Below are positions 9,936 to 25,883 of a stretch of 64,000 nt of DNA, in pieces (within the stretch, counting starts at the first letter, position 1; every line of letters starts with the position of its first letter). This DNA is from Chrysoperla carnea (Eukaryota; Arthropoda; Insecta; Neuroptera; Chrysopidae). The position numbers and the translations under genes are program-made. The notes under the pieces are model-generated. The model was not told the DNA's origin. It did no database searches and was given only the letters and a program-made list of their open reading frames with translations. The DNA lies in NCBI RefSeq assembly GCF_905475395.1, contig NC_058337.1:28854983-28918982 (forward strand), read 5' to 3'.

Positions 9936-11180
9936 AGAAGAGTCGTGTAGAAGAGTCACAGCGTTCCTGGCGCAGTTTGACCTCAAGTAACCCCGCTTGG
10001 ATGGTACACTTTTCAAAAAAGGGCAAACCTAGGTGAATGTTGGAAACCTCGGAAGTTGGATGACGTCATTGACCAATAGTAAATCAAGATGGCGTTGGGA
10101 GGTGTGGTGGGGCGTGGCTGACAGAGCGTTAGTGTGTTTCTTGGCGGAAGTGGGGCTTAAAGTGGTGGGCGTGGTTTTGGAAGTGGGGGTTAAAGGGGGG
10201 CGGGAATTGGACGTTAGATGAGATAATCGAATTCAGCCCAGTTGGATGGTACACTTTTCCAAAAAGGGCAAACCTCGGTTGAATGCGAAGTTGGAGGGGG
10301 GACGTCATTGGGTTTGACCAATAGTAGCGCTGTAAAAATCAAGATGGCGTCGGGAGGTGTGGTGGGGGAAGGAATGGCTGCCTAAGCATTGATGACGTCA
10401 TTGGCTTTGACCAATAGTGGCGGAGAGTGAACAGGGGGCGGGACGTAAGGGCAAACCTAGGTGAATGTTGGAAACCTCGGCATTGGCCAATAGTAAATTA
10501 AGATGGCGTCGGGAGGTGTGGTGGATGAGAATAATGGCTGCCTAAGCATTGATGACGTCATTGGCTTTAACCAATAGTGGCGGAGAGTGAACGGGGGGCG
10601 GGACGTTGACATTAATCTGCAATTTTCAAGAATATGTTAATTTAACCTTGAAAAATATTGTAATTTGACACTTTATACATGATAAAATTCAAGATACGTG
10701 ACCGGATGTTAATATTTTTTTTTTTATTGAGTCAGCATTGTAATATGACACTTGAAATTTACATAATAAAAATACATGTTCAAACTTGTTTGAATGGACT
10801 TTGATCTTAAAATAATTTCACACGTGTCAGCAATTTTCAAGAATATGTTAATTTGACCTTGAAAAATATGATATCATCATCTTGTAACAAGTTCAAACTT
10901 GTTTGAAATAATTTTACATGTGTCAAAACACGTGACCGGATGTTAATATTTTTTTTTATTGAATTAGCAATGTAATATGACACTTGAAATTTACATAATA
11001 AAAATACATGTTCAAACTTGTTTGAATGGACTTTGATCTTAAAATAATTTTACACGTGTCAGCTATTTTCAATAATATGTTAATTTGACCTTGAAAAATA
11101 TGATATCATCATCCTGCTACAAGTTCAAACTTGTTTGAACATGTTCAAACTTGTTTGAACATGTTTAAACTTGTCTGAAT
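9936..11180 (+). repeat. Left terminal inverted repeat of the Polinton
   Basis: Reverse-complement match to 24,638-25,883. The outer part (to about 10,610) is GC-rich with modular repeats. The inner part is AT-rich, with a block from GACCGGATGTTAATATT to the CACGTGTCAGC element repeated twice, and ends in palindromic TTCAAACTTGTTTGAA motifs at 11,120-11,180. The extreme end carries AGAAGAGTC twice (9,936-9,944 and 9,949-9,957), whereas the right end has it once. The arms are not identical: the left holds extra sequence near 10,325-10,335. Confidence 0.9.
10061..10608 (+). promoter_or_regulatory. GC-rich enhancer-like modules in the left TIR
   Basis: Repeated modules combine TGACGTCA (10,061, 10,393, 10,553; CRE/ATF consensus), inverted CCAAT boxes within the following CCAATAG, AAGATGGCG (10,085, 10,341, 10,500; YY1-like) and GGGCGGGA (near 10,198, 10,434 and 10,597; GC-box or E2F-like). 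The same motifs recur in the right TIR. By analogy with adenovirus terminal repeats, which bind cellular transcription factors, this may be a promoter/enhancer or an origin auxiliary region. Binding is inferred, not shown. Confidence 0.5.
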
Positions 11181-11602: not shown

Positions 11603-14600
11603 ATGGACACCTACGAACGAAATGTTATGCAGACGCTAAACGTGGTACCTCAAGGTGGTAGCACTGATATGATGAAGAAAGTGGAGAGAGCGTTGAGGCT
11701 CATCAAGACGGTGGAGGAAGCTGAGCGATGGATGATACTTAATAAGCAGAACATCCGCTTATTCAAAAAGATGTTGATGTTAAAGAAAGAAAATCCTCTG
11801 CGTCTTGAAGCTAATATTGGACTTTGTAAATCATACCAGCGGCAACTTCACCGACTGCGATTAGATTTAGTTAAGCAAGGTGGTGGTGTCACCAAAAAAC
11901 AAAATCGACATCTAATCTGGGAGACAATTGAAACCCACCACCAGGGCAGGGTGAAGACTGGTATGATTACCAATTTGGATTATAAAGATCCAAATATATT
12001 TTTCAACCGGGCATTTCCAATGTTTAGAAGACACGTTCGGCGTGAGCTAGTGAATCATCCCCTCAAGGTAAGTAAAATTTAAGATTTATAATTTAAATAG
12101 TCTAATGAGATTTTATTTCAGGTGTATATTATGTTCACGGGCAATTTCATTAAGCCCAGCACCAAAGAGGAGGATTTGAAAACTTTTATAACGTCGGCTA
12201 AGGAAATGTATCTGACAACGGACATGCAGGAGTGGTACATTGATCATGTCAAAAACTATTTGTTGAAAAAATTGGAAGAATTCCAGGAACGCGATAGCGG
12301 TTGGGCTCTTGACATGATCATAAATATTCGAGTCCACATGAATAAGTACTCTCCGATCACAGCTGGAACATTTTGCGAACTACCATCTGCAATTAAATGT
12401 AGAAAAGCTGTGATTAATGTCCGGAATGATGACCAACATTGCTTTTTATGGTCGATAATGTCAGCACTTTACCCGGTTGAAAAGGATCCTCAACGTTTAA
12501 CTAAGTACCAGCACTATAAATATCATTTAAAATTTGATGGATTAAAGTTTCCCATGTCTCTGGATCAAATTAATAAATTTGAAAAGATGAACCCGCATTT
12601 ATCGATTAACGTGTACGGCTACAAAGATACGTTTCTACATGGTTTGGAAATTTTCCCTGTACGCGTTAGTTCGAACACTGCGGGGCAGAAAATTCATCTA
12701 TTGGCTGTGGAGAATGGGAACAGTCACCACTTTTGCTGGATAAAAAATTTAGCAAAGTTGGCTCGATCGGGTGTAACAAAATTCGAGCATAAAATTTATT
12801 TATGTGATCGATGTCTCAACTATTTTGCTACAGAAGGCAAACTCCAACAGCATTCAGTAAATTGTGGTGAAAAAGAAGCGGTGCGGGTACGAATGCCTGA
12901 AACTGATGACGAGCGGTTCGTTGAGTTCAAAGATTTCAACAGCAAGGAACGTGTTGAGTATATGGTGTACGCTGACTTTGAGGCACTATTGGTACCACAA
13001 CATCATGAAGACATGGAAATGGATCATGGGTCTTATACAAAAAATATTCAAAAACATGTACCCTACAGTGTAGGTTACTATGTTCATTGTACCCATGATC
13101 CCAACCAATCGTTTTATAAGGCATACCGTGGTGCTGATTGTGTCAAGTGGTTTGTTCATGAACTGGAACAAGTAGCGTACTCATTAGAGCAAAAAATAAA
13201 ACACGTTAAACCAATGTATCCGCTCACCGTCGAACAAGAACTGGATTTTATGTCAGCAGAGAAGTGTCACATTTGTGGTAAAGATTTCGTATCCAATTCC
13301 ATACGTGTTCGCGACCATTCACATCGCACAGGTAATGCAGGTTATTTATTATTTTTTAATTTCATCTAATTTTATATTAATCTATTTTAGGTATCTACCG
13401 TGGAGCAGCACACCAATTTTGTAATCTGCATTATCAAGATTCAAGGGTGATACCTGTTGTGATGCACAACTTAAGTGGATACGATTCGCATTTTATTATT
13501 GAAGCTCTGCTGACGGAAATCGACGGTCAAGTTGATGTGTTGCCCATCAACAAAGAAAAGTACATCAGTTTCACAAAGCACGTCTCGGACATTCAATTAA
13601 GATTCATTGATTCCTTCCGATTTCTCGCAGACAAGTTGGAAAATCTGGCCTCATATTTAGATAATGATAAAAAATCCATTTTACATAAAGAGGTAAATGA
13701 TAAAAAATAATTAATTTTTAATACAGGGTTGTAATTTGTTTTTTAATTTTTTATAGGTCAGTAATGATGAACAATTTCAATTGCTAACGAGAAAAGGTGT
13801 ATTTCCATATGAATACATGAGTAGCTGGGGACGTCTCCAAGAGACAAAATTACCACCAAAGGAGGCGTTCTACAGTGTGTTAACAGATGAACACATAACG
13901 GATGAGGATTATAACCATGCGATACAGGTATGGAACACATTCAATTTACATACACTAGGTGATTATTCAGACCTGTATATGAAAACTGATGTGTTACTAC
14001 TTGCGGATATTTTTGAAAATTTCCGTAACACTTGTATTCATAGCTATAGTCTCGATCCTAGTCACTATTACACACTTCCTGGCTATACGTGGAGCGCCAT
14101 GTTGAAATACACCAATATCAAATTGGAATTGTTCACGGATATTGATGACTTGTTGTTTATCGAGAAAGGAATCAGAGGCGGTGTAAGTCAATGTTCTAAT
14201 CGCTATGCTAAGGCAAACAATAAGTACATGGAAGAGGGGTATGATAAAACTCAAGAAGATGTCTACCTTATGTATTACGATGTGGTGAACCTATATGGTG
14301 CAGCAATGTGTGGATACCTACCAACAGGAAATTTTAAGTGGGTTGACACACCAAACATCGAGGATGTTGCAGATGATTCACCAGTCGGGTACATTTTAGA
14401 AGTAGACCTTGAAATACCCCAACATCTACATGATAACTTTAGCGATTTACCGCCATGTCCGGAGACAACGAAACCACCTGGATCAAAACAAAAATATCTT
14501 CTGTCAACCCTTTACAATAAGACCAACTATGTCGTGCACTACAGGAATTTAAAACTGTATACACAACTCGGTGTTAAGGTAACAAAATACCACCGTGTGT

Positions 14601-22557: not shown

Positions 22558-22920
22558 TTATTTATTTAATAAAAATTGTATACATAGATGTCCACAAATC
22601 GGAGTATTAAACTGTTGTTGTCTATCAAAATTATATTGAATGTCACATCCGTTAAAATATTTAATGACTTCCACTGGCGGTCTCAAATTTCCAAAACTAT
22701 CATAATAGATGACACTTCGATTGTACTTTTTATATGCCGTCCAGTGTGTACCACTATTTTTGGATACATCATGGTTGATAATTCCTGTTTCATATTTATA
22801 TGGTCTTTTGGGTAGGGTGTCACGCATAAATACACCACGAAAATACGGAATTTTAAATTGTTTAGCATACGCACGTAGCTCCGTATCGTAAAGTGCTCTA
22901 CGTGGTAGCGTTTCAATTAG
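22558..22920 (-). CDS. Adenain-like cysteine protease, probably entered by -1 frameshift
   Basis: Maturation protease of the adenovirus protease type, cutting capsid precursors. Numbered from the ATG at 22,827, catalytic residues are H28 (GTHW), D43 (YYDSFG), Q70-72 (RQQQ) and C78 (CGHLC), in the family order. The conserved family N-terminal part, ending in IPYFRGVFMRDTLP, begins before this ATG. The open frame continues upstream to at least 22,920 with no ATG, starting exactly where a -1 shift at the A-AAA-AAC heptamer of the preceding gene would place the ribosome. From the ATG alone the product is 89 residues; from the shift site, 120. Alternatives are splicing or a non-AUG start. Confidence 0.85.
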   Translation of the reverse strand, partial: LIETLPRRALYDTELRAYAKQFKIPYFRGVFMRDTLPKRPYKYETGIINHDVSKNSGTHWTAYKKYNRSVIYYDSFGNLRPPVEVIKYFNGCDIQYNFDRQQQFNTPICGHLCIQFLLNK

Positions 22921-23702
22921 TTTTTTGCTAAATATAACCCCATGCCTTTGTTGTACGGTCTTAAATACAAGCCTTTACCCATTGCTATAGCTTCCATTGT
23001 TTTGTTGTGTCTTTGACTCTCATTAAGTTGATCACGAGCACTTTTATAATTTGTAACGGCTTTAGCAATACCCGACGCTCCACCAGCCAAAGCACCTAAA
23101 GCAGAGAGTCCTGCGAATATTGGAATTAATGGAAGTACACCACCAGACTTTGGAACTGGTATTACACGTGTGGGTGCTTTAATACGTTGACCTCGCACGG
23201 CTGCTTTTGCTATTTTTACAGCTGCTTTTAAGTCCGTTGGTTGTGATTTTTTCAATGCATTTCGTGCCTTTCGCACTGATGCTGTAAAGTTTATAGTTTT
23301 CTTTGTCTTTTTCGTCTTTTTCTTTTTTAATCCCATACCAAGTGAAGTTTTTGTCTTCATGGCGCCTGTAACGAATAAAGCGGATGCTTTTTCACCAATT
23401 GTTGAATCAGATGCTTTGGCACGTTTCCAAGCGGCTTCAGCTAATTGTTTATCTGCTAGATGACGCTCCTTTAAGTCTTTACTTTTTGAATATGCTATAT
23501 CATGTACCATACAAGCCTGATCCAATGCGTTTTTTGGTTTATCACCACGCGCTAATCGTTCAGCCAGCTTAGTTCCAGGTCCACAATATTGATAAGTTGG
23601 TATGTGTAACTCAAACGGTAATTTATTTATAAGTGTGTTAACAATACCTCTTCCTTTGTGTTGTTGCTTCTGATGTGACATACTACTAAATGATTTAAAC
23701 AA
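22917..23702 (-). CDS. Phospholipase A2 / pVI-like capsid-interior protein
   Basis: Residues 33-95 match the viral PLA2 fold: calcium loop YCGPGTKL (39-46), catalytic H67-D68 in HDIAY with Y71, and a later acidic D84. Parvovirus capsids use such a domain to leave endosomes. A lysine-rich tract follows (126-136), then basic helices, a hydrophobic segment (187-215, LPLIPIFAGLSALGALAGG) and a pVI/pX-like tail (RHNKTMEAIAMGKGLYLRPY). The protein therefore combines PLA2 with a pVI-type membrane-lytic and DNA-binding region. The second Met (M8, 23,681) is a likely true start given the TATA-like sequence at about 23,709-23,723. The frame ends in A-AAA-AAC-TAA and may be extended into the protease. 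Confidence 0.85.
   Translation of the reverse strand: MFKSFSSMSHQKQQHKGRGIVNTLINKLPFELHIPTYQYCGPGTKLAERLARGDKPKNALDQACMVHDIAYSKSKDLKERHLADKQLAEAAWKRAKASDSTIGEKASALFVTGAMKTKTSLGMGLKKKKTKKTKKTINFTASVRKARNALKKSQPTDLKAAVKIAKAAVRGQRIKAPTRVIPVPKSGGVLPLIPIFAGLSALGALAGGASGIAKAVTNYKSARDQLNESQRHNKTMEAIAMGKGLYLRPYNKGMGLYLAKN
22920..22926 (-). promoter_or_regulatory. Candidate -1 ribosomal frameshift heptamer A-AAA-AAC
   Basis: On the - strand the last codons of the PLA2/pVI-like gene read GCA AAA AAC TAA. The heptamer A AAA AAC is in the X XXY YYZ phase required for -1 slippage, and the stop is the very next codon. A 7-bp stem CACGTAG/CTACGTG lies 15 bases downstream, farther than the usual 5-9. The -1 frame is open through the protease. 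Confidence 0.6.
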
Positions 23703-24637: not shown

Positions 24638-25883
24638 ATTCAAACAAGTTTAAACATGTTCAAACAAGTTTGAACATGTTCAAACAAGTTTGAACTTGTA
24701 GCAGGATGATGATATCATATTTTTCAAGGTCAAATTAACATATTATTGAAAATAGCTGACACGTGTAAAATTATTTTAAGATCAAAGTCCATTCAAACAA
24801 GTTTGAACATGTATTTTTATTATGTAAATTTCAAGTGTCATATTACATTGCTAATTCAATAAAAAAAAAAAAATATTAACATCCGGTCACGTGTTTTGAC
24901 ACATGTAAAATTATTTCAAACAAGTTTGAACTTGTTACAAGATGATGATATCATATTTTTCAAGGTCAAATTAACATATTCTTGAAAATTGCTGACACGT
25001 GTGAAATTATTTTAAGATCAAAGTCCATTCAAACAAGTTTGAACATGTATTTTTATTATGTAAATTTCAAGTGTCATATTACAATGCTGACTCAATAAAA
25101 AAAAAAAAAAAAAAAAATATTAACATCCGGTCACGTATCTTGAATTTTATCATGTATATTTAAAGTGTCAAATTACAATATTTTTCAAGGTCAAATTAAC
25201 ATATTCTTGAAAATTGCTGATTAATGTCAACGTCCCGCCCCCCGTTCACTCCCCGTCAAGCACCACTATTGGTCAAAGCCAATGACGTCATCAATGCTTA
25301 GGCAGCCATTATTCTCCTCCACCACGCCTCCCGACGCCATCTTGATTTACTATTGGCCAATGTCGAGGTTTCCAACATTCACCTAGGTTTGCCCTTACGT
25401 CCCGCCCCCTGTTCACTCTCCGCCACTATTGGTCAAAGCCAATGACGTCATCAATGCTTAGGCAGCCATTCCTTCCCCCACCACACCTCCCGACGCCATC
25501 TTGATTTACTATTGGTCAATGATGTCCCCCCCTCCAACTTCGCATTCAACCGAGGTTTGCCCTTTTTGGAAAAGTGTACCATTCTTTGGGGTTGAAAGTG
25601 GGCTCGATTATCTAACGTCCAATTCCCGCCCCCCTTTAACCCCCACTTCCAAAACCACGCCCACCACTTTAAGCCCCACTTCCGCCAAGAAACACACTAA
25701 CGCTCTGTCAGCCACGCCCCACCACACCTCCCAACGCCATCTTGATTTACTATTGGTCAATGACGTCATCCAACTTCCGAGGTTTCCAACATTCACCTAG
25801 GTTTGCCCTTTTTTGAAAAGTGTACCATCCAAGCGGGGTTACTTGAGGTCAAACTGCGCCAGGAACGCTGTGACTCTTCTACT
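24638..25883 (-). repeat. Right terminal inverted repeat of the Polinton
   Basis: Reverse complement of 9,936-11,180, with the same order of palindromes, AT-rich doubled block and GC-rich CRE/CCAAT/AAGATGGCG modules. It ends in a single GACTCTTCT copy, and several module boundaries differ from the left arm. Confidence 0.9.

Follow-up and report, generated by a model that had tools for sequence, protein, structure and literature searches.

A probable programmed -1 ribosomal frameshift joining a PLA2-domain core protein to an adenain-like protease in lacewing Polintons

Introduction

Retroviruses make Gag-Pro by -1 frameshifting at the slippery heptamer A-AAA-AAC, as in MMTV, and in adenoviruses the protease adenain is activated by a peptide of pVI. 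Among related DNA elements, -1 sites have been suggested in the Penton gene of adintoviruses, together with a possible Hexon-Adenain ('Hexain') fusion, from KnotInFrame predictions (PMC11071296). In our search of PubMed Central full text that article alone combined 'polinton' with 'slippery'; PMC12567637 contains the words 'Polinton' and 'ribosomal frameshift', and the passages considered of PMC8363768, PMC5803895, PMC3671162, and PMC8097293 describe no frameshift between the PLA2-domain core protein (PX) and the protease (PRO). The same search turned up no account of a frameshift between PX and the protease, in line with an earlier note on this DNA that knew of none in Polintons; an earlier mention is possible, as subscription journals fall mostly outside the scope of that search. 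Maverick particles have so far gone unobserved, according to the abstract of PMC8097293, a gap that bears on the dosing and packaging of a protease by such elements. Here we describe a junction in a lacewing element that is very probably a programmed -1 ribosomal frameshift site yielding a PX-PRO fusion besides PX, a reading that the earlier note had put forward and that comparison among copies and relatives supports well.

Results

The window, by which we mean the whole 64,000-nucleotide stretch analysed (G000:C1:28854983-28918982, within a 559-Mb genome that is very probably that of the green lacewing Chrysoperla carnea), carries a Polinton/Maverick, recognized by its rve integrase, double-jelly-roll (DJR) capsid protein, and A32-type ATPase, all identified by Pfam along with PLA2, and by long terminal inverted repeats (e.g., 9947-10219 paired with 25610-25882). 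Two further open reading frames, which matched no polymerase model in a Pfam scan, are presumably PolB, a name we assign from motifs. This gene seems to be spliced, with two likely GT-AG introns at about 13332-13390 and 13693-13756 on the plus strand whose removal restores the frame, although PMC8097293 describes vertebrate Mavericks that are intact as lacking introns.

PX is encoded on the minus strand (22917..23681), from an ATG beginning at 23681 to a TAA at 22919-22917, as a 254-aa protein with a PLA2-like domain (Pfam PF08398, E 7.1e-15) and the C-terminus LAKN. Its 3' end reads TTA GCA AAA AAC TAA, placing a slippery heptamer A-AAA-AAC (22920..22926) directly against the PX stop with its first A as the third base of GCA, the correct phase for a -1 shift. 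The -1 frame resumes at CTA (22920-22918) and stays open for 120 codons until a TAA at 22560-22558; this frame, PRO (22558..22920, minus strand), is adenain-type by profile and by the fold of a relative, L016. Its first 31 codons lack an ATG, and the first one, opening the residues MRD, lies at 22825..22827, the predicted start of the protein P0001, which is identical to window PRO from that methionine. The heptamer, its phase, and the 120-codon frame with 31 ATG-less codons thus stand as the earlier note had read them. Upstream of the ATG lie the conserved residues LPRRAL...FRGVF (22828..22908), marked out by alignment, entry windows, fold, and codon-position differences; the earlier note had taken IPYFRG in this segment as typical of the family, and a 32-row alignment agrees: R46, G47, and V48 never vary in it, and conservation is at least 90% at I42 and F45. 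The segment can be reached only by a frameshift, a non-ATG start, or splicing.

We propose that most ribosomes would terminate at the TAA after A-AAA-AAC, releasing PX, the PLA2-domain core protein, and that some would move back by one base at the heptamer and continue into PRO, producing a fusion of PX and PRO about 374 aa long. If retroviral Gag-Pro is a guide, such a fusion would hold the protease dose low and bring the protease into the particle with PX. The sequences themselves show an in-phase heptamer, a PRO frame that lacks an upstream ATG yet is under coding constraint, conservation across families, other slippery heptamers in related families, and one-frame PX-PRO chains elsewhere; the slip, its rate, packaging, and dose are what we infer.

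A first survey of the same genome gave 194 candidates; 150 of these received a score, and the 108 copies that were read fall into nine families when grouped at 85% DNA identity. An in-phase X-XXY-YYZ heptamer lies inside the PX/PRO overlap in 91 of the 108, with all nine families represented: A-AAA-AAC in 60 copies, G-GGT-TTT in 26, and T-TTT-TTT in five, the last five also carrying an overlapping A-AAT-TTT. The 60 A-AAA-AAC copies share one phase across six families, and the proteases of the five such families other than the window's are just 48-59% identical to window PRO. PX is extended by one or two codons in some copies, and the heptamer nevertheless remains in phase. G-GGT-TTT is the weakest case among the three heptamers; it lies 37-40 bases 5' of the PX stop, and some of these copies have other in-phase matches. 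The remaining 17 copies comprise one with A-TTT-TTT (L047), seven with damage or without the right phase (L033, L035, L066, L067, L096, L100, and L101), in several of which AAAAAAC is still present, one with PX and PRO in a single frame (L016, 396 aa), and eight without the junction (L025, L031, L032, L042, L043, L103, L104, and L108). In these eight a PRO segment is fused directly to the beginning of the ATPase region from the opposite strand, an arrangement that recurs at several places, and they are an internal-deletion derivative that has multiplied.

L016 belongs to the same family as L011-L014, its siblings, which need a -1 shift, and would fit a history in which a fusion gene was broken in two by decay or by misassembly of the A run. 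The identical phase of 60 copies in six families speaks against such an origin, as does a PX tail signature that is identical in relatives from other sources (below), and we regard decay or error as ruled out by the copies and families, with a very small probability. For chance, we used as control the PX frames 5' of the overlap in one copy per family, 1697 codon positions in all. Any in-phase heptamer occurred at 34 of these positions and A-AAA-AAC at three, in the window's own PX (23535-23529, minus strand) and in the upstream sequence of L024 and L009; G-GGT-TTT, T-TTT-TTT, and A-AAT-TTT were in phase at none of the 1697. Because one control A-AAA-AAC sits within the window's PX, a heptamer by itself proves nothing; it is the recurrent position at the PX end, as read in these sequences, that is evidence beyond chance.

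How ribosomes might enter PRO otherwise can be judged from the entry window, which follows the last upstream stop in this frame and ends at the protease domain. An ATG is absent from this interval in seven of the nine families, so the ATG-less region that the earlier note proposed to compare is present in those seven and not in two, the L010 and L017 families, where an ATG stands five bases 3' of a heptamer that is itself retained. One stray ATG, far upstream, occurs in L093, a member of the window family. These two families lend some support to an alternative in which the heptamer is a by-product and PRO is made alone by internal initiation, be it at a near-cognate codon (ACG, for instance), by leaky scanning, or by reinitiation past the PX stop. 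In its favor, too, the window has an ACG (22909..22911, minus strand) one codon before the domain, a possible near-cognate start at the position of the predicted initiator methionine in P0002, a close relative, and L011 has an ACG two codons before. Among the 120 PRO relatives listed, judged as proteins only, the predicted start lies within about six residues of the domain in 65, further upstream in 40, inside it in 12, and at MRD in three. However, the ACG is not common to L009, L024, L036, or L049, the heptamer persists in the families that have an ATG, and internal initiation leaves the KN signature and the one-frame fusions described below unexplained. The entry windows of L049 and L065 consist only of CAA or CCA followed by AAA TTT TTT TTA AGT CGC and contain no ATG, near-cognate start, or YAG, which would make frameshifting close to the sole route to a whole protease in that family. 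We thus consider internal initiation unlikely as the explanation of the junction. Free PRO is probably made besides the fusion where an ATG directly follows the heptamer, and may be an additional product in part of the listed relatives.

Splicing of an upstream ATG exon onto the PRO frame would fit a window whose PolB looks spliced, with two apparent GT-AG gaps restoring the frame, and in which TATATTTAG lies immediately 5' of the heptamer. A YAG acceptor, however, occurs at no common position, being absent from the entry windows of L010, L011, L017, L049, and L065 and scattered elsewhere, and splicing would leave the conserved heptamer unexplained; we give it a lower probability still than internal initiation. 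With no common acceptor and an ACG that is not conserved, we rejected both splicing and the ACG start as general routes. Differences within the ATG-less segment fall on PRO codon positions 1, 2, and 3 in the ratio 288:155:438, a pattern indicating that its PRO frame is under coding constraint.

Beyond the lacewing, relatives were judged from protein sequence, and the rows are not independent. A search with PX gave 2659 matches, of which the best 120 were used, and one with the natural fusion L016 gave 1241, of which the best 120 were used and 89 were new; LOC123298951 of Chrysoperla carnea is among the relatives found. After 33 proteins containing protease were set aside from the 209 in P0121-P0329, KN occurred in the last eight residues, followed by 0-5 residues to the end, in 162 of the 176 unfused PX relatives among these best listed matches, the other 14 lacking it. 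The position after KN was a stop in 51, F in 50, Y in 32, C in 18, S in six, L in four, and V in one (n=162), so that in 161 the residue or stop allows a codon beginning with T, although S and L have other codons too. The residue before the terminal KN could in every case have a codon ending in A (0/162 exceptions, vs 81/332 at other KN sites). These flanking residues suggest that what PX relatives conserve is the nucleotide string A AAA AAC T and not the two amino acids. The comparison of junctions that the earlier note had called for finds an in-phase heptamer in 91 of 108 copies in the genome and tail residues compatible with A AAA AAC T in 161 of 176 unfused PX relatives elsewhere. Proteins of the contig pairs P0010/P0192 and P0067/P0210, overlaid by hand and paired solely by equal source-contig size, fit A-AAA-AA(C/T).

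PX and PRO also occur in one frame. Among the 89 new relatives, again from the best listed matches, 27 are one-frame PX-PRO chains by motif, and a further six have the protease core at their C-terminal end; examples come from Temnothorax and Trichogramma. Their lengths are 329-443 aa, with one of 579, compared with 374 expected for the window fusion. Fifteen derive from unannotated contigs, whose gene calls are probably intron-free, and 12 from insect genomes with annotation, in which a frameshift might have been bridged by the gene model. KKN is retained between PX tail and PRO in 12 of the 27 (P0249, P0256, P0260, P0276, P0279, P0281, P0284, P0286, P0295, P0299, P0306, and P0315), as if the slippery A run had been kept; a -1 slip there would exit the PRO frame. 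One PX-protease chain, P0243 of Lucilia cuprina, is deposited as 'Capsid protein VP1', a name that probably derives from the PLA2 domain.

The earlier note held that frameshifting would be refuted by relatives that lack the heptamer and start their protease at an ATG, and such relatives exist in part. A search of genome contigs returned a single locus, L109 (JAKSCW010000563.1), whose adenain-like protease begins with an ATG of its own and is not preceded by PX, and the 65 of 120 proteins with starts near the domain point the same way; the two lacewing families with an ATG, by contrast, keep the heptamer. The L109 contig is assigned to a Balneolales bacterium bin and probably represents eukaryotic contamination of it. 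Scans of IMG/VR with PRO, PX, A1, and A3 found no Polinton junction; L110-L112 match PX over just 36-42 residues, and their plus-strand open reading frames showed no protease motif.

In the structural model of L016, the ATG-less residues form part of an adenain fold, and by this predicted fold and its His/Cys core PRO fits adenain (peptidase C5), the match covering residues 2-137 of adenain only. The PX tail (residues 255-274 of L016) has pLDDT below 50 and is disordered in the model, in which no docking of the tail on the protease is seen; the earlier note's suggestion that fusing a pVI-like tail to the protease would tether activator and enzyme therefore lacks support. Adenain-type cleavage motifs occur in 190 of 209 PX proteins, vs 124 of 209 after one shuffle, a difference that is too weak to use.

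A possible stimulatory hairpin (22865..22909, minus strand) lies 10 nt 3' of the window heptamer, with a z-score of -2.0 over 60 nt and -0.5 over 100 nt. Downstream folding was evaluated in 14 copies, four of which were wrongly anchored and excluded; over 60 nt, z was about -3.1 in L024 and L027 and 0.3 to 1.2 in seven other copies, and no conserved stimulatory RNA structure 3' of the heptamer emerged among the correctly anchored copies. A pseudoknot scan returned nothing in nine of nine, and since shuffles gave zero too, it had no power.

Discussion

The candidate frameshift signal is conserved, at the DNA level among lacewing families and by protein inference elsewhere. We further suggest, with somewhat better than even confidence, that insect Polintons depend on a PX-protease fusion much as retroviruses depend on Gag-Pro, and that they reach it by interchangeable routes, either in one frame or by a -1 shift at A-AAA-AAC, T-TTT-TTT/A-AAT-TTT, or G-GGT-TTT. 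On this view, different heptamers have replaced one another with the -1 phase and the fusion unchanged, so that selection would be keeping the fusion and its dose. A conserved fusion of this kind would offer a testable answer to how the protease is dosed and packaged, would support the view of Polintons as particle builders, and would place a retrovirus-style translational trick in an adenovirus-like DNA lineage. For annotation, calling the protease from its first ATG can remove folded sequence.

Among known systems, adenovirus adenain with pVI differs from the lacewing pair in that only adenain residues 2-137 are matched here and the tail of PX has no ordered structure in the model. The one-frame insect PX-PRO chains have the same two domains in the same order, in an arrangement that makes a frameshift unnecessary. 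The possible 'Hexain' of adintoviruses comes from related elements, in which a suggested -1 shift would join a capsid protein to this protease, although its partner is the major capsid protein rather than PX. Retroviral Gag-Pro shares with the lacewing junction the class and phase of the heptamer, an inner-particle protein followed by a protease, and an unshifted product that stops near the slip site. In contrast to the retroviral case, the lacewing junction showed no conserved stimulator, belongs to an adenovirus-like DNA element, and would couple an adenain-type cysteine protease to a PLA2-domain partner.
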